The notes under the pieces: model-generated | Databases searched by the model: none | Told to the model about the DNA's origin: nothing | Seen by the model: the letters and a program-made list of their open reading frames with translations, nothing else | Shown here: piece after piece, positions 5,335-63,390 of the stretch | How the letters are laid out: each line of letters opens with the position of its first letter | Numbering within the stretch: position 1 is the stretch's first letter | NCBI GenBank assembly: GCA_020186115.1 | Contig: WSYJ01000036.1 | Coordinates: forward strand, 1,240,001 to 1,304,000 | Direction of reading: 5' to 3' | DNA: 64,000 nucleotides | Source of the DNA: Histomonas meleagridis | Taxonomy: Eukaryota; Parabasalia; Tritrichomonadida; Dientamoebidae | Translations under genes and position numbers: made by a program

Positions 5335-7365
5335 ATGAGTATTTCGGCTAAACGGTTTTTGCAGGAAAATTCTAAACATTTTTACTACTTTGTTTAATTT
5401 TAGCTGTTTTATTGCTTATTTTATGCGAATATTCAACATCAATATCTCGTTTAAGGGATGGTGAAATATACACTAGAGGCAATTTTAATCCTTTCATGAA
5501 ATTATCAATTCCACAATATGGGCCATACACAAATAATCCGAGTTTCATATATAAGTCTTTATCCAAGTCAATGTGTATTCGAAGAACCAGGTTTAGTTTC
5601 GAGTTTGCACGTCTTTTTGATAAACATTTGGATAATAGTCAACTTTCAAAATCGAATATATTAATATTTGGAGGCATGACATCTGTTGGTTCATCACTTA
5701 AACGATTATTTCATAAATTTAATATATCTTTTGTTTCTGTTAATGGTATTAATGAAATTGATTTTTCTACACCTGATTCATATAAAGTTTTAAATACAGT
5801 TCGTATAGCGAAAGCGATCATAGCCTATCAACCTCCATTAGTACGTCATACATATTCAGATGGTTATAATTATACGGTAAATATATCGACAAAATATATT
5901 TCAGGATTATCAAAATATTTCAAAAAAAAAACGAATTCCATTTACTTTTGTTGCGACACAACCTATTTATAACGAGACAGATATTGTAATTAAAAATGGC
6001 GGCAATGTCATTGAAATTCCATATTTAATTGATTCTAAAGCAGTAAAAGATCTTGAAAATCCGACAATGCGAGCAGTTCGTGAATGTTTAAAAGTCAATT
6101 ATACAAACGTTGAATATTTGCCATTTCTTAAATATGAAAGTATTACTTCCGATGAAGTTGCTAAATTCGTAATGAATGTCTTCAATCCGAAAGGACATAT
6201 TTTACTTAAAGGTCATTCTACTATTGATATTGAAAGTGCAGTTAAAATCGCACTTAAGTCAGCTAACATTTCGAAATGTTCCGTTCATTTCCATAACTAT
6301 TCACATAAAGTAAGTTATAACTCAAAATATAATTTCAAGAAATTTATAGGTCAAAAAGATACTGATGTAAAAACACTTATTGCAGATGCATATAAAGGTT
6401 TCAAATTAAAACAAAATCCAGACAAAAAATATTACGCATCAATTGTTCTCACAGGTCGTAATGATGGTTATGGTATTGGGTTTGAAAATCGTGCGCAAAA
6501 CTTTCTTAAAGCTATTGATTATGCACTTAAAGTTGTTCCACTTGCAGATGTCGAAATTGTCCTTGTCGATTATGCGACGCCTGTTAAGAACAAGTTATTA
6601 TCAGAGGTGTTAAAGGTTCCATCCGGTTTACATGATAAGATTCGATTTATAGTTGTTCCACCATCAGTTCATACTATGTTAGAAGAACGCTATCAAACGA
6701 AATATGATTTTCTTGAATATGTTGCGAAAAACATTGGAATCCGTCGCTTGTTTGGTAAGTTTATCTTGACGACGAATGCTGATTGTTTATTCCCAACTGA
6801 ATTCTTCGAGTTAATTGCAGCTCATCAATTTAATTCGGCTGTAGTTTATAGAGGAAATCGTTGGGATTTAAAGCCGGATACATTAAAGACACATAATATT
6901 ACTATGGATAACCTCATAAAGATTATATCCGAAACATGGACAGTTAGTAATATGGATATAGTCCAATGGTGTACTGACTTCGATTATAGATTCGCCGTAA
7001 TCGATTCATGTCGTGAATATAAACGTAAAGCGGCTTCATGCGCACCTGGAGACTTCCAAATGTTGTCGAAATATATGTGGGAGGCAGTACAGGGATTTAA
7101 TGAAGTCCCAGCAAACCCCGCAACAGATTCTGTGTTCATCGCAAGAATGATGAAATTAATGCCAGGCTATATGCCAATGTTCGTACACCCATTGTTCTTA
7201 CATCAATATCATAATCAGTCGTACGGAAAAAGAAAAATATTTCCAAAAGAAAAGCCCGCAAAAAATGATTATTGCTGTATCGGAAATTGTATTTCTTGCG
7301 CACCGTTTTATGATCGTAATGATTGGGGACTTATTAATTATACATTTAGAGAAATAATGTTTTGA
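5335..7365 (+). pseudogene. type II membrane protein: SDR-like N-terminal part and GT-A-like glycosyltransferase, two frameshifts
   Basis: Three frames read as one protein. From the ATG at 5335 a short cytoplasmic tail (MSISAKRF...) runs to a T5 tract at 5379-5383. In the next frame a strong membrane anchor follows (LLLCLILAVLLLILC, about 5382-5426), then a Rossmann-like segment (ILIFGGMTSVGSSL) resembling RmlD-type reductases. At an A10 tract (5922-5931) the frame changes again, and the protein continues as RIPFTFVATQPIYN into a C-terminal half with a glycosyltransferase look: an NADC acidic motif after FILTTNAD, a Cys-rich end and TDSVFIARMM. Each shift is one base in a homopolymer, so assembly error is possible; decay is the alternative. 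The architecture suggests a Golgi sugar-modifying enzyme; the substrate is unknown. An AACCGTTT word lies at 5313-5320. Confidence 0.6.
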
Positions 7366-10843: not shown

Positions 10844-13756
10844 CTAAAAGTAATCCAAACTGATGCTGAGATCCTCTGCATCAGATCCGTCACTTTCTAC
10901 AGGTACCACATCAGCTTTAGCGTCTGTAACCAACGACTGGTGTTCAGGCTTGTCACTGTCATCAAATGAAGATGAAACATGTTTTTCGTTGCTGATGTGC
11001 TTTGATGACTTTGATGAAGAACTGTCTAATTTGACATCTTCGATTTCACTGCTCTTATTTATGTTTTCGCTATGTTTTGATGACTTTGAAGCCGAACTAT
11101 GAATTTTAATATCTTCAATGTCTTTGATTTCATTTACATTTTGACTGTGATTTGATGACTTTGACGAAGAACTGTCAAATTTAACATCTTCGATTTCGCT
11201 GCTCTTATTTATGTTTTCGTTATGTTTTGATGACTTTGATGAAGCACTTTGTAATTTGATGTCTTCGATTTTGCTGATTTCATTTACATTTTGACTGTGC
11301 TTTGATGACTTTGATGAAGAACTGTCAAATTTAACATCTTCGATTTCGCTGCTCTTATTTATGTTTTCGCTATGCTTTGATGACTTTGATGAAGCACTTT
11401 GTAATTTGACATCTTCGATTTCACTGCTCTTATTTATATTTTCGCTATGTTTTGAAGCGGTACTATGAATTTTAATATCTTCGATGTCTTTGATTTCATT
11501 TACTTTTTGACTTTGCTTTGAGGATTTGGACGAAGTACTTTGCAATTTGACATCTTCAATTCCATTTATGTTTTTACTGTTCATTGATGACTTTGAAGCA
11601 GAACTTTGGAATTTCCCTTCTTCGTTTCCGATTTTGATGTCATCAAGTGGTATTTTTAATAAATTTTCGTCGTGCTTTGATGATTTTGTTCGATTTGAAG
11701 CTGAACTTAAAATATTTTCTTTATGTTGTGATGACTTTGAGTGTATTGATGACGAACTTTGGAATTTCGTTTCTTCTTTTTCTGATGCTCTTCGTGCTGA
11801 ACTCAATTCTTTACTATGTTTCGATGATATTGATTTTCTTGATATTGAACTTTCGTGATTTGATAATTCTTTTCTCGATGATAAACGTGAAGCTGAACTT
11901 AACATATTTTCTTTGTGTTGCGATGATATCGATTTAATTGATGAAGAACTTTGGAATTTCATTTCTTCTTTTGCTGATGCTCTTCGTGGTGAACTTAACT
12001 CTTTACTATGTTTCGATGATATTGATTTCTTTGATGCTGAACTTAACATATTTTCATTTCGTTTTGATGAAAGTGATTTATTTGATATTGAACTTTCATG
12101 TTCTGAAGGTTCTTTTCTCGATGACAAACGTGAAGCTGAACTTAACATATTTTCTTTGTGTCGTGATGATATCGATTTAATTGATGACGAACTTTGGAAT
12201 TTCGTTTCTTCTTTTTCTGATGCTCTTCGTGCTGAACTCAATTCTTTACTATGTTTCGATGATATTGATTTTCTTGATATTGAACTTTCGTGATTTGATA
12301 ATTCTTTTCTCGATGATAAACGTGAAGCTGAACTTAACATATTTTCTTTATGTTGCGATGATATTGATTTAATTGATGACGAACTTTGGAATTTCATTTC
12401 TTCTTTTTCTGATGCTCTTCGTGCTGAACTTAATTCTTTACTATGTTTCGATGATATTGATTTCTTTGATGCTGAACTTTGGTATTTCTCTTTTCTCGAT
12501 GATAAACGTGAAGCTAAACTTAACATATTTTCTTTATGCCGTGATGACTTTGATCTCATTGAAGCAGAACTTTGGAATTTCCCTTCTTCGTTTCCGATTT
12601 TGATGTCATCAAGTGGTATTTTTAATAAATTTTTGTCGTGCTTTGATGATTTTGTTCGATTTGAAGCTGAACTTAACATATTTTCTTTATGTTGTGATGA
12701 CTTTGAGCGTATTGATGACGAACTTTGGAATTTCATTTCTTCTTTTTCTGATGCTCTTCGTGGTGAACTTAATTCTTTACTATGTTTCGATGATATTGAA
12801 CTTAACATATTTTCATTTTTCTTTGATGAATCTGAATCTGAACTTAGCATATCGAAGTTCGACGAATTTGAATGCGAACTTTTTGATTTTTCTTCTTCTT
12901 TTCCTATAAATTCATCACTTGATGATGAGCTTGACAATTTTTCATTCTTTTTCGATGAATCAGATGCATTTTCTGATGACGTACTTAGTAAATTCACTTC
13001 GTCTTTGATTATTATATCATTACCATCAGAAGACATTGAATTTGAAGAAAATAATTTCGTTTCATCTTTATCGTCTTTATGTTTTTCACTCGAACTAAGT
13101 TTTTTATCATTATTTGATAATGTATTACTTCGAGCACTAGATGTTTTTGTACTTATTCTAGAAGTCTTGGAACTAACAGAAGATTTGTCAGATAATTTAT
13201 TTGTTTGATAACCAATTTTAATACTTTCTTTTGGAAATTTGCGCTTATATGTGGCACTGTAACTTTTTTTACTGTTGTTTGTTGAGTACGGGGTTGTATA
13301 TTCTGCATAACTCTCATTTGATGCAGATGAAATGTCGCTTGGATCTGGTATAACGGAAGATGAAGAAGTAACATATGAAGATGAAACATAATTAGAAGTT
13401 CGGGATGATGATGAAGGATACCGCACATCGGAATCAAATAAATTGAACTCAACAAATTTCCCTTCTTTTCTTGTTGAACTTTTGGTACTATTCCAATCTT
13501 CAATCCTTTTTGATTTATTTGGTCTAGTATCAATTTTCCTGATCATTGCACTGTGGTCTTGATATGCTTTTTGTACCTTTTCTTTATATCTTTCTTGTTT
13601 TTCATAATGAAGTTGAATTCTTGGTGATATGTCAGGTCGAGAAGTATTAATAATTGGTCTAGAACGTTGCAGGGCTTCCATGTGCCTTTTGTATGCACGT
13701 TCTTTTTCTTGAATATCAAGAAACCGATTTGAAACTGGTGGTTCTCTCACAGACAT
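10844..13756 (-). CDS. serine/lysine-rich repeat protein, low complexity
   Basis: I chose the ATG at 13756 (MSVREPPVSN). The frame is open to 13855, but that would run into the divergent HMG-box gene. The first 100 residues are ordinary and charged (KERAYKRHMEALQRSRP, then a coiled-coil-like HYEKQERYKEKVQKAY). The rest is Ser, Lys and Glu-rich. The middle holds repeats of about 64 residues (192 bp) built from KHSKELSS, RRASEKEE, KFQSSSSI and HKENMLSSASRLSSRKE. The C-terminal third holds repeats of 24-25 residues (72-75 bp) around NKSSEIEDVKLDSSSSK. It ends with an acidic tail (DGSDAEDLSISLDYF). It is probably disordered and heavily phosphorylated, perhaps cytoskeletal or nuclear; no family recognised. 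Confidence 0.8.
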   Translation of the reverse strand: MSVREPPVSNRFLDIQEKERAYKRHMEALQRSRPIINTSRPDISPRIQLHYEKQERYKEKVQKAYQDHSAMIRKIDTRPNKSKRIEDWNSTKSSTRKEGKFVEFNLFDSDVRYPSSSSRTSNYVSSSYVTSSSSVIPDPSDISSASNESYAEYTTPYSTNNSKKSYSATYKRKFPKESIKIGYQTNKLSDKSSVSSKTSRISTKTSSARSNTLSNNDKKLSSSEKHKDDKDETKLFSSNSMSSDGNDIIIKDEVNLLSTSSENASDSSKKNEKLSSSSSSDEFIGKEEEKSKSSHSNSSNFDMLSSDSDSSKKNENMLSSISSKHSKELSSPRRASEKEEMKFQSSSSIRSKSSQHKENMLSSASNRTKSSKHDKNLLKIPLDDIKIGNEEGKFQSSASMRSKSSRHKENMLSLASRLSSRKEKYQSSASKKSISSKHSKELSSARRASEKEEMKFQSSSSIKSISSQHKENMLSSASRLSSRKELSNHESSISRKSISSKHSKELSSARRASEKEETKFQSSSSIKSISSRHKENMLSSASRLSSRKEPSEHESSISNKSLSSKRNENMLSSASKKSISSKHSKELSSPRRASAKEEMKFQSSSSIKSISSQHKENMLSSASRLSSRKELSNHESSISRKSISSKHSKELSSARRASEKEETKFQSSSSIHSKSSQHKENILSSASNRTKSSKHDENLLKIPLDDIKIGNEEGKFQSSASKSSMNSKNINGIEDVKLQSTSSKSSKQSQKVNEIKDIEDIKIHSTASKHSENINKSSEIEDVKLQSASSKSSKHSENINKSSEIEDVKFDSSSSKSSKHSQNVNEISKIEDIKLQSASSKSSKHNENINKSSEIEDVKFDSSSSKSSNHSQNVNEIKDIEDIKIHSSASKSSKHSENINKSSEIEDVKLDSSSSKSSKHISNEKHVSSSFDDSDKPEHQSLVTDAKADVVPVESDGSDAEDLSISLDYF
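10990..11500 (-). repeat. 72-75 bp tandem repeats in the Ser-rich gene
   Basis: Successive copies centred near 11010, 11085, 11155, 11230, 11300 and 11375 encode SSEIED-V/I-K followed by a Ser/Lys cluster and KSSKHSENIN. The period is a multiple of three apart from small in-frame changes. Confidence 0.7.
11580..12800 (-). repeat. 192-bp long repeats in the Ser-rich gene
   Basis: Units recur with a 192-bp pitch (for example the codons for KFQSSSS near 11752 and 11944, and again near 12188 and 12380), with partial units between. Several stretches are nearly identical, so recent unequal crossover is likely and copy number may vary between strains or be misassembled. Confidence 0.65.
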
Positions 13757-21303: not shown

Positions 21304-21424
21304 GAATAAATATATATGTTTTGGAATTAATTTTTTTTTGGATAAAAATATAAATTTATTTGATATTATAGTAATAGATTTGAATCATTTTGGGTTTAGT
21401 GTCAAATGTTTGTTTAACGATTTT

Positions 21425-22480
21425 TGTTCAAGTAATTTAACTATTTCTATTTGCCAAGTTGAGATGCCCACATAAGTGCTGTATAAAATATTTTGAGCAA
21501 AATTATCTAAATATTATTTTGAAATCCAAAATTAAGAAAATAAACACCAAATAAAACGAGTAAATAGTATTAATATCAATTCCTTCTTGTTCAAGAAAAA
21601 ATTTAATAAAATTAGAACTCTGTTTGTTTTTTACAATGTTTGGTTCAAGAAAATTATGTACAATCATGGCTTCAAGAAGATAAGATGATTCATTTGTCTG
21701 TTTGTTATTAAGAAACGTAATAAGATGCATAAAATAATTATAATATATCTCAAATATTATTTTAAATATGAAATCATTAAAATTATTTTCAAAAAATATA
21801 ACATATCATCTTTGGTATTAACTTCATAATTATTCAATCCTATATCATTGTCTTTTAAATATATGATAAATGCATTAATGTTAAACAAATCGAAGACTTT
21901 GTAATTTATGAATTGGAAATAATATGTTCATTAATGATGAATAAAATGAATATATTTCAAAAGATGTAACAACTTTACTAATTCTAATTGCTTCCAATTT
22001 ATCATAATCATAAAATGCACTATTTACATGTATAGTAAAATGTATTATTTCAGATCATAGTGAAATAAGGTGATGATAAAAATATAAAGAATTTCAGTAA
22101 AAAAAATCAATGCATGAAAAGAAGAATATTTTTATATAAGAGGTAAGTTTTACTTCAATAAGATTATATTCAATCATTTATTCAAGAAGATATTATGGTA
22201 CGATGGTTTTATTACAAAAGAAATAGCGTAAAACATTCAAAAAATTTGATTTATACTATTAATTTCTTCAAATCTCTCAATTTCTTTTATTGAACCTAAG
22301 TATATATATATCAAAAAAATCCAAATTTATTAAAATCATTGTGAAAACCATTTGAATGATAATAAGTTTAAGAGTATGATAACTTTGAATCAAGAATATT
22401 GAATTAAATTACTATTTCATATACAATGTTAGCTTCTTTAAAACCAAAAGCTATTTGATTGATGGAAAAGAGGAATTTCT
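21425..22480 (-). pseudogene. relic of a DUF3447/ankyrin gene
   Basis: On the minus strand one can read scattered pieces of the family that is better preserved at 22592 and 59196. Near 21640-21730 is NNKQTNESSYLLEAM...HNFLEPNIVK, matching DSYFLLEELIDKKLIEPNIVK of the 59-kb gene. Around 21430-21610 is one ankyrin unit with its spacer: FLEQEGIDIN, then the hydrophobic spacer reading FKIIF, then TALMWAS and EIVKLLEQK. Near 22270-22350 is EIERFEEI. Frameshifts and stops are frequent, so it is dead. Limits are approximate. Confidence 0.5.
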
Positions 22481-22591: not shown

Positions 22592-25155
22592 ATGCAAGAA
22601 AGAAAAAAAACAATTCAGAACGAATGGGAAACAATTTTATCGATTAAGCAAATTATTTTTGATTTAGATAAAGAAAATTTAATTCAATCAGCAAAATCAA
22701 TAATTAAAACATTTAAGCATAACCATCCATTATCTTTAAATCCGATTATTTGTCAAATGATATACACAGTTCTTGTTATATCAGAAACAAAAATGTTTGA
22801 TTTATATTTAAATTTTATGAATGAAATTAAAACCATACAAGAGAAAAAAAATAACAAGTCAAAAATTTTTAAAGATTTTGCAATTTTCTCTATTAATAAA
22901 AATGATGAAGAATCACGTTTTCTTCTTAATTCATTGATTGAACATAATTTTATTAAACCAAAATCTGTCCAAAGCTTAAAAAATCCTTATTTTGCTCATT
23001 ATCTTTCACATGAAAAAGTTAAAAATTTATCTAGTTTAGAATCTTTTCATGATAATTATGAAGAACTATCGAAGAACAATTGTTCTGAATATATTCAAAA
23101 AAATTATGAAGGATTATCAAAGAATGATTGGGAATTACATAAGAAATTAATTAGAGAATGACATAATCCAAATGAAATTGTAAAAATAATCCGAAATGAT
23201 GAAGTAGAAAAACTTCAAGAAATATCATCACAAACAAATTTTGATTTTAATCAAAAAATTGAACCATCACTTTATGAAAGATGTTCACTTGTTAATGAAG
23301 ATAATGTTTCATTAATTGATTATGCAGCATTTTTTTCAGCAGTTAAATGCTTTAAATATTTACTTATGAATGGAGCTAAAGTAGAAAACACAGGCAAATA
23401 TGCAATTGCAGGAGGAAATGAAGAAATAATTCATTTATGTGAACAAAATTATTCATCGTTTGAAGATGTATATGAAACAGCAATTATTTTTCATCGAAAT
23501 GATATCTTTAAATATTTTTATGATAATAAATTAAAAGAAATTAATAATTTAGAAGAATTAGGAAAGCTTTGTATTTTATATCATAATTATGAAATATTTT
23601 CATTTTTACTTAAAGAAGGAATGAAAATCAATGATGATATTATTAATGAAGCAGCAATTATTGGAAATATTTTTTTAGTTGAAGATTTTCTTAAAGATCA
23701 TTCAATTCCGCATGATATATTGGTATTTTCAGCTGAATCAGGAAATATTGAACTTGTTAAATATGTTTTAAAACAAAAAGGAATTGATATTAATGATGAA
23801 AATATTCAACTGTTTCATTTGATATTTATTTTAATAATTTGCTATTTCAAAATAATATTTGGAAATTATTTTGAATATTTTATACAGCGCTTATGAACGC
23901 ATCTTGGTTTGGTCATACAGAAATAGTTAAATTACTTCTTGAACAAGAAGGAATTGATATAAACCGCGAAACTATTTATTTCTTTTTTTGTATAGTTTAT
24001 TTTAATAATTTGATAATTCAAAAAAGTATTTGGAAATTATTTAAATTATTTAAGACAGCACTTATTTGTGCATCTATAAATGGTCATACAGAAATAGTTA
24101 AATTATTTCTTGAACATAAAGGAATTGATATAAATCACGAATGTATTTATTTGTTTTATTCATTGTTTATTGTAATAATTTTTTATATTAAAATAATGTT
24201 TGGAAATTGTTTAAATTATTTGATACAGCACTTATTTATGCATCTGAAAATGGTCATTCAGAAATAGTTAAATTACTTCTTGAACAAGAAGGAATTAATA
24301 TTAATGCTAAAGATATTAATTTGTTTTATTTTTTATTTATTTTAGTAATTTAGAATTTTAAAATAATATTTGGAAATTATTTAAAATATTATGGACAGCA
24401 CTTATGTTCGCATCTAAATCTGGTAACTTAGAAATTGTTAAATTGCTTCTTGAACAAGAAGGAATTGATATTAATGCTCAAAATATTTATTTGCTTTATT
24501 TGATATTTATTTTAATGATTTTTTATTTCAAAATAATATTTGGAAATTATTTTATTTATTTGTAACTGCACTTCATATAGCAATTAGAAATAATAATACA
24601 GAAATAGTTAAATTACTTCTTGAACAAAAAGGAATTGATATTAATGCTGAAGATATTTGTTTGTTTTGTTTGAAATTTATTTTAATAATTTTTTATTTCA
24701 AAATAATATTTGGAAATTATTTTAATTATTTGAAACTGCACTTCATATAGCAATTAGAAATAATAATACAGAAATAGTTAAATTACTTCTTGAACAAAAA
24801 GGAATTGATATTAATGCTGAAGATATTTGTTTGTTTTGTTTGAAATTTATTTTAATAATTTTTTATTTCAAAATAATATTTGGAAATTATTTATATTATT
24901 TGATACAGCACTTATTAGAGCATCTTCAAATGGTCATACAGAAATAGTTAAATTACTTCTTGAACAAGAAGGAATAGATATTAATGCTAAAAATATTAAT
25001 TTGTTTTATTTTCTATTTATTTTAGTAATTTAGAATTTTAAAATACTATTCGGAAATTATTTAAATCATTTGAAACAGCAATTGAATTAGCATTTATAAA
25101 TAGCAATACAAAAGTAATTGAATTATTTCGGAAACTAAGGGGAATTTTAATATAA
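22592..25155 (+). pseudogene. DUF3447/ankyrin-repeat gene with one nonsense codon and a split 170-bp repeat array
   Basis: The N-terminal part (22592-23161) and the middle (from 23162) are the same frame, broken by TGA at 23159-23161 where the paralogue has GGA (IKEGHNPN). The middle carries the DUF3447-like region (KYAIAGGNEEIIHLCEQN) and the first ankyrin repeat, whose EIVKLL-type helix starts at 23750. Eight more ankyrin units follow with that helix at 23920, 24091, 24261, 24431, 24601, 24771, 24941 and 25111: a 170-bp pitch, once 171. Each unit codes 30 clear ankyrin residues from TAL to GIDINAKD and is then followed by about 80 bp before the next Thr codon, of which some 68-71 nt breaks the frame. 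The last unit ends in frame at TAA 25153-25155. Apart from the TGA it could be intact if the spacers are removed. Confidence 0.65.
23750..25130 (+). repeat. 170-bp tandem array, about nine units
   Basis: Spacers share the consensus ATTTATTTGTTTTATTT...ATTTGGAAATTATTT...TTATTTGAA before ACAGCACTT. Two adjacent units (24601 and 24771) are almost identical, while the others have diverged. No GT...AG boundary is shared: the 3' edge is ACAG in some units and ACTG in others, both coding Thr. Confidence 0.85.
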
Positions 25156-56316: not shown

Positions 56317-59196
56317 TTAAAAACCTTTTGATTTGAATAGTTTTGGTTTTTGATTGCAAACAGCTTCAACAAGTTTCATATCAATTTCAATTCCTTCCTG
56401 TTCTAGTAAGTTTTTGAGTTCAGTATTATTATTTTTGCAAGCATAAATGTATGCATTTTGAAGTAAACTCATTAAATACCAATTTTTAAATAAAAACATC
56501 AAAAACAAATAATAAACATTAAACACATGAACAAAATATCTTTTGCATTAATATCAACACCTTTTAGTATTAAATTCTTTACAAGTTCAATATTACCATT
56601 TGAAGATGCATATAGAAAAACTGTTCGAAACAATCATAACAAATTCCAAATTATGTGAATATATAGAAAATAATTAAAATAGTTATTAAAGATAATAAAC
56701 AAATGTCTTTAGCATTAACCTCAATTCCATTTTGTTCAAGAAGCAATTTAACAATTTCAAAATGATTATTTAAAGTTGCCAACATAATGGCCGATTGAAA
56801 TAACGCAAATATTTTTCAAATGAATAAATAAAATATAAAATAATTATATTAAACATTAAAGAAAACAAATATATATCTCTAGCATTAATTTCAATTCCTT
56901 TTTGCTCGAGAAGTAATTTAACAATTTCAATGTGCCCACTTGCAGAAGCCAATATAAGAGCTGTTTGAAATAAATAAAATAAATTCCGAATGAATAAAAC
57001 ATTTATTAAATAATTAAATAAAATATTAAATAAATTAAATAAATATCTTTTGCATTTATATCTGTGCCTTTTTGTCTAAGAAGTAATTTAAAAATATCAA
57101 TATTGCCACTTGAAGATGCAATCATAAGTGCTGTTTGAAACAAATAAAATAAATTCCGAATGAGCAAAACAAATATCAAATAATCAAATCAATTATTAAA
57201 TAAAGCAAATAAATATTTTTTTCATTCATTACATTAATGTTTTTTTCAAGAAACAATTGAATAATATCAATATTATCATTTGAAGATGCTAACAAAAATG
57301 CTGTTTGAAATAATTCAAATAAACTCCAAATACTAAAAATAAGCAAGAATTTATTAAAATTAATATCAAATAACATAAATATACATTTTTTGCTTCAATC
57401 TCAATATCATTTTGTTCAAGAAGTAATTTAACAATTTCGAAAAGCCCATTCATAGTTGCAATCATAAGTGATGTTTGAAACAATTTTAATAAATTTTATA
57501 AAATAAAAATAAATCCAAAATTATTGAAATGAATTCTATATTTAACAAGTAAATATCTCCAGCATTAATTTCAATACCTTTTTGCTCAAGAAGTAATTTC
57601 ACAAGTTCAACATCACCAGTTAAAGTAGCAATCATAAGAACTGTTTGAGATAATTGAAACAAATGCCAAATATGCAAAATAAATAGTAAATTATTAAAAC
57701 AAACTTTAAATAAAACAAATAAATTCTTTTTGAATTTACATTAATTCCTTTTTGTTCAAGAAGAAACCTTACGATTTCGATTTTATCAAATCTAGATGCA
57801 ATCATAAGTGCTGTTTCATATATTTATTATAAACTCCGAAAGATGAAAACAAACAAAAAATCATCCAAATCGACATCAAATTAAATCAATGAATATTTTC
57901 CGCGTTAATATCAATTTCTTTTTCTTTAAGAATTGCTTTAACTATTTCAGGATTTCCTGATTGAATAGATTGAAGAAAAGTGGAATTAGATATTTGTATA
58001 CTTTCTTTGATGGAATTGAACAAATATGTATTTCCACTTTTTAATATTTCATCACTAATGTCATTAATATTCATTCCTTCCTGTATTAAAAATGATAAAA
58101 TTTTGAAGTTATTATATTGTATACATATTTGACCAAGATAATTAATGTTCTCTTGAGTTAAATTATTTGTATATTGAATATTATTAGGTGAACATCGTAC
58201 TCCACATCGAGCTTGGCCAACACCGCCTCTTACCTGGAACATGGATCCAGTAAATGAACTTTTATCAACTATTTTCCCAATTTTATTTTTATAAAGATAG
58301 TAAAAAATATCATTTCTATGAAATTGAATTGCTGCTTCATAAGCACCTTCAAATGATGAATTATTTTGTTCACATAAGTGAACGATTTCAAGATTCCCGC
58401 CTGCTATTGCATATTTTCCCGTAATGACTCCATTCGGGTTTTTTTGTTTTAAATATTTAAAACACTTAATTGCGCCGAAAAATGCACAATAATCAATCAT
58501 GGATACATTTGATTGATTAATAAATGAATGCCTTTCATAGAGTGATGGTTGAATGATTTGATTAAAATCAAAATAATTTTGTGATGATATTTCTTGAAGT
58601 TTTTCTATTTCATCATTAACAAGTATTTTTGCAATTGCGTTTGGATTATGTCCTTCTTTAATTAGTTGTTTATGAAGTTTCCAATCATTCTTCGATATTT
58701 CTTCATACTTTTTGTTATATTCTGAAGTATATTGGATAATACCTTTGAAATTTGGAGTATGATAATGAGCAAAAACATAAGTCATTAAGTTTTTTACAAT
58801 ATTAGGCTCAATTAATTTTTTATCAATTAATTCCTCTAGTAGAAAATATGAATCTTGAGTTTCAACACCAAGTAAATAATTAGAAAAAACGTTTATAAGG
58901 TTGTTTTCAAGCTTATGATTTTCTTCTTCCTTAGCATTCAAAATCTGTAAATATTGAAAAATAAGATTTTTGTTCTTCTCAGGCAAAATAGAAATTGAAT
59001 ATAAAAATCTTGAAATCATTAAATGAAATGTATAAGGAAAATTCTGATCAAAAAGATTTAAGGTTGATTGAATTGCTGTTTCAACATTATCTTCATTAAT
59101 TTTATATATAATTTGTTCTAATGTTTGCATTACTTCCATTTGCACTAAGCCAAGCACAATTTTGAAAGACCCAGAAAGATCGAAACAAAAAGCCAT
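56317..59196 (-). CDS. DUF3447/ankyrin-repeat protein with split 170-bp repeat array
   Basis: The continuous frame 59196-57886 encodes about 430 residues: an N-terminal helical region, the DUF3447-like block (KYAIAGGNLEIVHLCEQNN) and the start of an ankyrin domain, and ends inside the first spacer (ENIH-stop). Seven to eight further ankyrin units continue downstream at a 170-bp pitch (equivalent helix positions at 57931, 57761, 57591, 57421, 57251, 57081, 56911, 56741 and 56571). Each is readable for 30 residues without a stop. A last unit reads QNAYIYACKNNNTELKNLLEQEGIEID and ends naturally (KLFKSKGF) at TAA followed by AA. If the 68-71-nt spacers are removed the gene gives one long ankyrin protein. 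Codon-by-codon the units have diverged strongly. Exon limits inside the spacers cannot be fixed from the sequence. Confidence 0.65.
56560..57950 (-). repeat. 170-bp tandem array, second locus
   Basis: Nine anchor points at exactly 170-bp steps. The 80 bp between the last clear ankyrin codon and the Thr codon of the next unit are alike in every unit, with ATTTATTTGTTTTATTT at the 5' side and a conserved TTYGGA about 20-27 bp before the Thr codon, mostly followed by TTATTTCAA. Confidence 0.85.
58188..58250 (-). other. GC-rich in-frame insertion in the ankyrin gene
   Basis: About 63 bp of unusually GC-rich sequence coding for GSMFQVRGGVGQARCGVRCS. The paralogue at 22592 has no such segment: its text runs from KLKEINNLEELGKLC directly. 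Origin unknown. Confidence 0.5.
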
Positions 59197-62382: not shown

Positions 62383-63390
62383 ATGCGCATGATTTTGCAG
62401 GCCTTATTTATCTGTAAAATACTCAGCAAATGCCCTGTATGCGATCCTGGAGAATTCTGCTCGCCACCATCTTCTTACTGCACCAAGTGCCCACCAGGAA
62501 CAATTTCATATATATCAGGTTCATCTTCATGCAGTAGATGTAATTATGGCTATTACAATGAGAAATATGGTGCGACAGAATGTAAAGCATGCCCAGCAGG
62601 AACAGCCAATGGTGAATTAGGTGCCAATTCATCATCTGCGTGCAAAATTTGTCCACCAGGAACAATTTCATACAAATCAGCCTCAGCCTCATGCAGCAGA
62701 TGTAATTATGGCTATTACAATGAGAAATATGGTGCAACAGTATGCAAATCGTGTCCAGCGGGAACAGCCAATAGTGAATTAGGTGCCACTTCTTCATCAG
62801 CGTGCAAGACATGTCCACCAGGAACAGCAAGCTCACAAGCCTCAGCCTCATGCAGCCGATGCAATTATGGATATTACAATGAGGAATATGGTGCATCAGT
62901 GTGCAAGCCGTGTCCAGCAGGAACAGCTAATGGTGAATTAGGTGCCAATTCATCATCTGCGTGCAAGACATGTCCGCCAGGAACAGCAAGCTCACAAGCT
63001 TCAGCCGCATGCAGTCGATGCAATTACGGATATTACAATGAGGAATATGGTGCATCAGTGTGCAAGCCGTGTCCAGCAGGAACAGCTAATGGTGAATTAG
63101 GTGCCACTTCATCATCTGCGTGCAAGACATGTCCGCCAGGAACAGCAAGCTCACAAGCTTCAGCCGCATGCAGTCGATGCAATTACGGATATTACAGTGA
63201 GGGATACGGAAATGCGCATTGCGAACCGTGTCCGGGTGGGTATTACAACGACGTAATTGCCGCAACTTCATTCAGCTATTGTAAGCGATGTCCTGCAGGG
63301 TATGTCAGTAAGGTGGCATCGTCTTACTGCAGCAGGTGCGCAGATGGATATCACCCAAGTGCTGACCAAACTTATTGCATCTTAGATTAA
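62383..63390 (+). CDS. secreted Cys-rich GCC2/GCC3 (ephrin-receptor-like) repeat protein
   Basis: A hydrophobic leader (MRMILQALFICKIL) is followed by about six repeats of 53 residues: CPPGTASSQASASCSRC, NYGYYNEEYGASVCKPC and PAGTANGELGATSSSACKTC. The pattern CxxCPPGT/CPAGT with YGYYN is the GCC2/GCC3 or Eph-receptor-like Cys-rich module, as found in many protist surface and secreted proteins. The last unit is divergent (CPGGYYNDVIAATSFSYC). There is no membrane anchor or GPI-type tail, so the 335-residue product is likely secreted or granule-stored. Units 3 to 5 are nearly identical in DNA. Confidence 0.85.
   Translation: MRMILQALFICKILSKCPVCDPGEFCSPPSSYCTKCPPGTISYISGSSSCSRCNYGYYNEKYGATECKACPAGTANGELGANSSSACKICPPGTISYKSASASCSRCNYGYYNEKYGATVCKSCPAGTANSELGATSSSACKTCPPGTASSQASASCSRCNYGYYNEEYGASVCKPCPAGTANGELGANSSSACKTCPPGTASSQASAACSRCNYGYYNEEYGASVCKPCPAGTANGELGATSSSACKTCPPGTASSQASAACSRCNYGYYSEGYGNAHCEPCPGGYYNDVIAATSFSYCKRCPAGYVSKVASSYCSRCADGYHPSADQTYCILD
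62640..63190 (+). repeat. 159-bp tandem repeats in the Cys-rich gene
   Basis: CPPGT codons occur at about 62651, 62813, 62972 and 63131 (steps of 162, 159 and 159 bp). The units beginning at 62813 and 62972 differ at only a few bases, so homogenisation is recent. Confidence 0.8.

Follow-up and report, generated by a model that had tools for sequence, protein, structure and literature searches.

The gene at positions 56317 to 59196 on the minus strand of a 64-kb stretch of the Histomonas meleagridis genome (the window; G000:C30:1240001-1304000) consists of an open N-terminal part and nine ankyrin units at a pitch of 170 bp. Each 80-nt linker is made up of four inserts of 17 nt that alternate with single codons (D/17/N/17/N/17/G/17/Q-T-A-L), and the single codons spell the usual ankyrin linker, DxxGxTAL. 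These codons are under coding constraint, the inserts have no GT...AG ends, and inserts of the same kind recur in other ankyrin genes of the genome searched (43,276,120 bases in 121 contigs). Every insert would have to be skipped for a full ankyrin protein to be made. From the sequence, we infer that the arrays are transcribed and that a route not described so far probably removes the inserts from the RNA.

An earlier note on this DNA had described nine ankyrin units at an exact pitch of 170 bp, a reading frame that stops in the first spacer, and a last unit with a natural C-terminus. All three features were found: the units lie on the minus strand, the open reading frame (ORF) covers 57886-59196, and a clean stop codon is present at 56317-56319. 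The units differ a great deal from each other, as had also been remarked, with a mean p-distance of 0.33 between the cores (21 pairs from seven units of the nine-unit array). The 34 codons of a unit (102 nt) and four inserts of 17 nt account for the pitch of 170 bp. The note had taken the spacers for frame-breaking pieces in a coding ankyrin gene, which is borne out insofar as repeats of 33 or 34 residues result once these pieces are set aside. However, instead of one intron of 68-71 nt per repeat, there are four 17-nt inserts with single codons between them. All linkers of the gene (9/9) fit this alternation with four inserts each, giving 36 inserts; eight were split by the profile and linker 5 by eye, the profile having ended one codon early. 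The sixth linker, for example, is GAT/17/AAT/17/AAT/17/GGA/17/CAA ACA, which reads D-N-N-G-Q-T. The N-terminal part scored above the Pfam cut-offs for PF11929 (32.7 bits, cut-off 26.9) and PF12796 (28.3 bits, cut-off 27.3). The parts of the gene are as follows:

57895-59196, minus strand: N-terminal coding part, a DUF3447-type domain and the first ankyrin half-unit (PF11929, PF12796); open frame ends ...NAEN before the first insert; members at other loci
57815-57894, minus strand: linker 1, four 17-nt inserts and the codons GAT, TTT, GGA and GAA; reads N-D-F-G-E-T
57725-57814, minus strand: ankyrin core, 30 codons (i-E 1.6e-12)
57645-57724, minus strand: linker 2, four 17-nt inserts; reads R-K-T-G-Q-T
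57555-57644, minus strand: ankyrin core
57475-57554, minus strand: linker 3, four 17-nt inserts; reads D-R-W-K-Q-T
57385-57474, minus strand: ankyrin core
57305-57384, minus strand: linker 4, four 17-nt inserts; reads N-D-L-G-Q-T
57215-57304, minus strand: ankyrin core; the profile ended one codon early at 57218, and the end was read by eye
57135-57214, minus strand: linker 5, four 17-nt inserts; reads N-N-D-G-Q-T; split by eye (the profile gave 83)
57045-57134, minus strand: ankyrin core (i-E 1.2e-14)
56965-57044, minus strand: linker 6, four 17-nt inserts; reads D-N-N-G-Q-T
56875-56964, minus strand: ankyrin core
56795-56874, minus strand: linker 7, four 17-nt inserts; reads D-N-Y-E-Q-S
56705-56794, minus strand: ankyrin core
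56625-56704, minus strand: linker 8, four 17-nt inserts; reads D-N-S-G-R-T
56538-56624, minus strand: ankyrin core, 29 codons
56458-56537, minus strand: linker 9, four 17-nt inserts; reads D-N-D-G-Q-N
56317-56457, minus strand: last coding part, natural C-terminus and TAA

The same rule was observed at many loci. Adjacent ankyrin units were compared in the window and at loci L001-L065; a profile derived from such units was used to find the pairs, which are thus not a random sample. The D-to-T gap was 12+17n in 249 of the 294 distinct adjacent pairs (12 nt in 22, 29 nt in 2, 46 nt in 4, 63 nt in 18, and 80 nt in 203), and it was 60, 100 or 120 nt, that is, composed of 20-nt units of one codon and 17 nt, in a further 20. 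The remaining 25 gaps fit neither series, including gaps of 81 (7), 83 (5), 77 (3), and 66 (2) nt; some of them look like profile ends that are one codon off and some like one-base changes. Of 156 pitches below 700 nt in the window and L031-L050, 138 were 87 or 90 nt plus a multiple of 20; the others include 171 (6), 166 (2), 153 (2), single values, and two double hits. Inserts of 17 nt and kept codons of 3 nt thus explain both the array pitches and the series of D-to-T gaps.

For 124 non-redundant 80-nt linkers, the codon windows were set by position, without any fitting. GG was present at codon 3 in 77% of these linkers, whereas none of the other 83 offsets exceeded 8%. Codon 3 encoded glycine in 95 linkers (GGA 81, GGG 6, GGT 5, GGC 3), and 114 of the 124 had T after codon 4. 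DxxGxTAL is the ankyrin linker consensus, and it emerged only when the 17-nt inserts were set aside. Codons 2 and 4, and to a lesser extent codon 1, were more variable than the adjoining inserts. Stop codons were absent from the single codons: 0/496 in the 124 linkers (31.2 expected), 0/800 in 200 distinct linkers (44.3 expected), and 0/318 in seven loci with long linkers (54.4 expected), the expectation in each case being the product of position-wise base frequencies, which ignores shared ancestry.

The ankyrin cores were also open, as had been claimed in spite of a pitch that is not a multiple of three. An in-frame stop codon occurred in 3/213 cores, versus 201/213 and 213/213 in the other two frames; the 213 cores stem from 41 locus-strands, some of which overlap, such that the stop counts share ancestry. 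Translation straight on would be blocked, because a stop codon was met in 208/213 units (with a unit's own core as the stand-in for the next). In a satellite or decayed array, coding positions would be free to gain stop codons, which is not what the counts of 0/496, 0/318 and 3/213 revealed. Together with the glycine codons, the absence of stops from the single codons makes the decayed satellite that the earlier note had named as the alternative an unlikely one. The comparison of synonymous and non-synonymous changes proposed there was informative in part. Single differences in core codons were synonymous in 253/844 cases, mostly at structural residues, versus 180.6 predicted from the mutation spectrum of the inserts, whereas the ratio of non-synonymous to synonymous rates (dN/dS) was weakly below 1 and overlapped with that of wrong frames.

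The inserts are T-rich (RTTTATTT...TTT), with the overall consensus RTTTATTTNNNNNATTT and, in arrays, the consensus sequences ATTTATTTGTTTTATTT, ATTTATTTTAATAATTT, ATTTCAAAATAATATTT, and AATTATTTAAATTATTT at linker positions 1 to 4. Among 800 array inserts, 704 begin with A and 66 with G, and 683 end with TTT. The inserts lie between codons; a boundary one base further left is possible where the preceding codon ends in T. In agreement with the reported lack of shared GT...AG ends, GT...AG was found in 0/800 array inserts at each of the seven shifts from -3 to +3; at shift 0, 59/800 start with GT and 1/800 ends with AG. The CTAAC branch-site motif fused to the 3’-end is missing from the insert consensus and is present at the nine kinase loci described below. 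The inserts are also unlike the introns of Trichomonas, as had been noted, and the 3’ motif ACTAACACACAG of Trichomonas vaginalis is nearly absent from the genome, being found at three places versus two for the reversed control; one of the three is a genuine kinase intron (L071). The idea of a new intron class is therefore supported in part: the frame-breaking pieces lack GT...AG, but they do not form one block, since the single codons carry the linker glycine as well as variable residues and are never stops in the counted sets.

Other ankyrin genes of the genome carry one to four inserts. Loci outside the array family were taken from the list of Pfam Ank_2 matches, with L056 and L065 set aside. 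At these 29 loci, the D-to-T gap was 12 nt in 50 of 73 pairs, contiguous repeats that bear out the DxxGxTAL linker; it was 29 nt in 2, 46 nt in 6, 63 nt in 3, and of another length in 12. Gaps above 15 nt were present in 21 linkers, of which 16 could be decoded into 36 inserts and 5 could not. The lengths were 17 nt in 32 cases, 18 nt in two, and 19 nt in two. The first base was G in 23 and A in 13, and 22/36 start with GT and 0/36 end with AG; these base counts lean on a decoding that favored R as the first and T as the last base. The single insert of L051, GGA/ATTGATTTTATAATAAT/TGG, yields a normal D-D-G-W-S-P-L. As judged by eye, L062 and L064 have a DUF3447-like N-terminal part, and are thus other genes rather than unrelated ones. 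In total, about 1,100 inserts were counted in the fetched loci (800 and 318, with some overlap). When coding potential was used to scan the window for frame changes, nine ORF pairs were returned, of which four were compatible with a 17-nt insert, all in the two ankyrin arrays.

The same genome also contains ordinary introns. Nine kinase loci (L066-L074) were read as DNA; they were fetched from 133 rows, derived from 132 scored of 635 candidates, seven because of internal stop codons and two because they were cut short. All nine have GTATGT introns, with the 3’-end CTAACACATAG in eight and ACTAACACACAG in L071; for L071 and L072 the intron ends were read from translations. These introns differ from the 17-nt inserts, and thus two kinds of intervening sequence coexist. 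The introns of L066-L073, which are SNF1-like kinases, share one position that follows an ALL(A/S/V) stretch, and some kinase introns keep the frame, such that the match runs on with stop codons inside. According to PMC8529796, the genome has 573 introns, at most one per gene, as predicted with AUGUSTUS trained on a transcriptome. A search for a second, divergent spliceosome, which covered U2 and U6 and left aside U1, U4, U5 and the minor-class small nuclear RNAs, retrieved only one U6 locus (C36:377228-377335, just below the curated score) and two U2 loci that share the RNA body (C40:1173955-1174137 and C120:2033147-2033329).

The search for further arrays that the earlier note had suggested was productive: one unit matched the genome at least 84 times and another at least 152 times. 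The N-terminal part also recurs. With the related protein P0001 as the query, 107 loci were scored, of which 96 had no stop codon in the match and 11 had one; these are the best of 6971 first-look candidates, by which intact loci are favored. The spacers of L033 and L035 consist of 20-mers in tandem, the C-terminal ends are clean as read by eye, and L033-L038 underwent homogeneous, satellite-like expansion. L035 (1992-6020) is a homogeneous array with linkers of 4 to 24 codon-plus-17-nt units, a raw picture of stepwise expansion. A 42-residue unit had no homologue when used as a protein query, and no relative was found in the viral contigs searched. The window itself holds further members:

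22592-23803, plus strand: N-terminal part of a second family gene, with one in-frame TGA at 23159-23161
23804-25074, plus strand: second array, in which ankyrin cores alternate with linkers of four inserts; linker 23974-24054 has 81 nt (one extra base), and the last linker was read by eye
21422-21649, minus strand: decayed fragment of a third array with insert remnants

Related proteins were retrieved from ENA contigs (P0001-P0009 and P0014-P0022; longest lengths 1.3-6.1 kb), of which the proteins were read. P0001, the only one compared with the Histomonas genome, had at most 64% identity, and therefore it stems from a different species or a strongly diverged relative. Seventeen of the proteins read reach the end of the first unit. 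Nine of them (P0001-P0005, P0008, P0017, P0021, and P0022) stop with I or V one residue past the D position, which is what an insert starting RTT TRA would give, and P0006 ends at that same point with D. Six (P0007, P0009, P0014, P0015, P0018, and P0020) continue into a different tail and then stop, and the first linker of P0015 has no insert. P0019 is read in frame across a stretch (KIYFNDFIFQNNIWGFLKLF) similar to what three Histomonas inserts would give when translated. An in-frame stretch of the N-terminal part in the window (SSFTGSMFQVRGGVGQARCGVRCSPNN, about 58130-58270 on the minus strand) is missing from P0001-P0008, and a split match near it was seen in eight N-terminal-part loci. DUF3447-ankyrin proteins of Tritrichomonas (P0012 of T. 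musculus and P0030 of T. foetus; read as proteins) belong to the same protein family. P0012 continues through several ankyrin units, whereas P0030 ends about ten residues past the DINA motif and is uninformative.

We favor the explanation that four inserts per repeat, 36 in the nine-unit gene, would be cut from the transcript without GT...AG or CTAAC signals. This might be achieved by a divergent use of the spliceosome, as the 5’-end GTTTATTT resembles a 5’ splice site, or by another activity that cuts and joins RNA. A spliceosomal origin is possible because this 5’-end is reminiscent of GTWYWD, the type B motif of T. vaginalis, although the AG and the branch motif are missing. Within the family, the inserts would have spread most simply by tandem copying of the codon-plus-17-nt unit, which is seen in its raw form in L033-L038. 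In its widest form, for which we regard the chances as evenly balanced, the proposal is that near-fixed 17-nt sequences without AG form a class of intervening sequences, as yet undescribed, in Histomonas and in one or more of its relatives. Extrapolated from the 1,100 or so inserts counted, each genome would probably contain thousands of them. They would divide ankyrin linkers into single codons and be taken out of the RNA by machinery that does not follow the GT-AG rule, while tandem copying of a codon with its 17 nt would add residues singly. No description of 17-nt inserts that split a gene codon by codon was found in the open-licence PMC full-text literature. If removal from RNA is true, this would be, to our knowledge, the class of intervening sequences with the shortest possible whole-codon exons; at least 100 Histomonas genes (107 loci) could exceed their open-frame length, and the cell would require a splicing or decoding device of a new kind.

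Published descriptions allow a comparison with known systems. Trichomonad introns are of types A and B; type B introns have 23-28 nt, start with the 5’ motif GTWYWD, and carry a T at both position 8 and position 9, and the introns end with RCTAACACAYAG or TCTAACH(1-2)AACAG, carry GT...AG, and occur once, rarely twice, per gene (PMC12316389). The inserts share with type B introns the lineage, the very short length, and the resemblance of GTTTATTT to the 5’ motif. In contrast to the introns described there, they have 17 nt, no branch motif or AG, up to 36 copies per gene, and single-codon exons between them. The introns of Stentor coeruleus, of 15 and 16 nt, are similarly AU-rich and ultrashort with a near-fixed length, but they are reported to have a near-fixed branch adenosine and the splice sites that are most common for the major spliceosome (PMC9505925), whereas GT...AG is missing from the Histomonas inserts. 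The non-conventional introns of euglenids and diplonemids are also nuclear and outside the GT-AG rule (PMC12621601, PMC11170887); on a broad comparison, length, single-codon exons, and confinement to ankyrin linkers set the inserts apart.

Another way of skipping the inserts, which we consider unlikely, would be ribosome bypass, with the inserts staying in the mRNA and the ribosome hopping over each 17-nt piece from codon to codon. The inserts decode as lying between codons, their length is nearly fixed while their sequence is weakly fixed, splice signals are missing, and steps of one codon would be more natural for a decoding device than for a spliceosome. Gene 60 of T4 and the byps of Magnusiomyces, a yeast, are familiar cases in which a short piece of a coding sequence is skipped without splice signals. 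However, known bypassing of both kinds requires matching take-off and landing codons, and the byps are mitochondrial and variable in length. The Histomonas inserts are nuclear, have near-fixed lengths of 17 nt, and are flanked by codons that rarely match (identical in 32/496 cases in the non-redundant linkers). Furthermore, 36 jumps per protein in nuclear translation are without precedent known to us; if the ribosome does jump, this would be the most massive nuclear bypassing we know of. It is also quite unlikely that the arrays are untranslated relics copied from a functional source, with the N-terminal part ending at the first insert as the working product. The mostly open N-terminal parts (96/107) and the arrays that are unreadable straight on (208/213), the weak dN/dS, the satellite-like expansion in L033-L038, and the TGA in the gene of the second window array would fit this view. 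Yet relics would not be expected to have 0/496 and 0/318 stops among the single codons, a synonymous excess in the cores, or clean C-termini in the nine-unit gene as well as in L033 and L035. Further ankyrin genes contain one to four of these inserts, which likewise speaks against relics, and the functional source would have carried inserts too.

One larger intron of 68-77 nt per linker, with which the single codons would be lost, follows the view of the earlier note that there is one intron per repeat, and has the advantage of a single cut per repeat. We regard it as very improbable, because the single codons carry glycine and no stops, linkers with just one or two inserts exist, and ankyrin repeats need, according to their established structure, the linker residues DxxGx, which would be lost if the block were removed entirely. 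An artefact of assembly or sequencing is scarcely credible. The assembly report describes a combination of Nanopore and Illumina data, which can leave indels (PMC8529796), and a break at an A-run near 5.92 kb of the window looks like one; however, on many contigs about 1,100 inserts agree in length, consensus, and place in the protein, and this is also where proteins from other public contigs break off. Four further parses were rejected: one GT...AG intron per repeat (the AG in CAAACAG is coding, as ACT and TCG replace ACA; GT is not conserved; GT...AG in 0/800), splicing at TATTTG direct repeats (wrong frame, by hand), exact removal of 20k nt (30-residue repeats without linker, by hand), and the spacer read through as a hydrophobic stretch (stop codon in 119/213 linkers).

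Several observations weigh against removal of the inserts from RNA. We know of no precedent for single-codon exons between 17-nt introns, which would be hard for a spliceosome to handle, and inserts were seen only in ankyrin linkers. The ENA contigs, if they are transcripts, would show inserts retained in RNA. The second array (23.7-25.1 kb, plus strand) is partly broken, with a TGA in its gene and an 81-nt linker, and L035 would have linkers of up to 24 codons. The expected numbers of stops ignore shared ancestry, and zero stops were also counted at register shifts of -4, -3 and +3 (139/318 at -1); these shifted windows lie in T-rich, little-varying insert bases. The dN/dS of the cores was 0.72 for adjacent units, 0.68 between arrays, and 0.49 and 1.05 for the two window arrays. 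Wrong frames gave 0.37-1.21, and because of this overlap dN/dS does not decide and is not leaned on. At codon 3, the synonymous share of 12/24 is near the neutral value of 0.44. Lastly, inserts and cores are about equally conserved between arrays (p-distances of 0.31 and 0.34).

Additional observations were made outside the ankyrin family. At G000:C78:376002-376739, a kinase domain lies inside an open frame listed as 22,955 residues. In the window, one gene at 5496-7365 is seemingly broken by a frame change at the A-run near 5920-5935, perhaps an assembly indel. A cysteine-rich ORF at 62383-63390 contains 4.3 copies of a 159-bp tandem repeat with 90% matches, and a serine-rich ORF of 970 amino acids at 10844-13756 is composed of nested tandem repeats of 75, 150, 192, and 435 bp.

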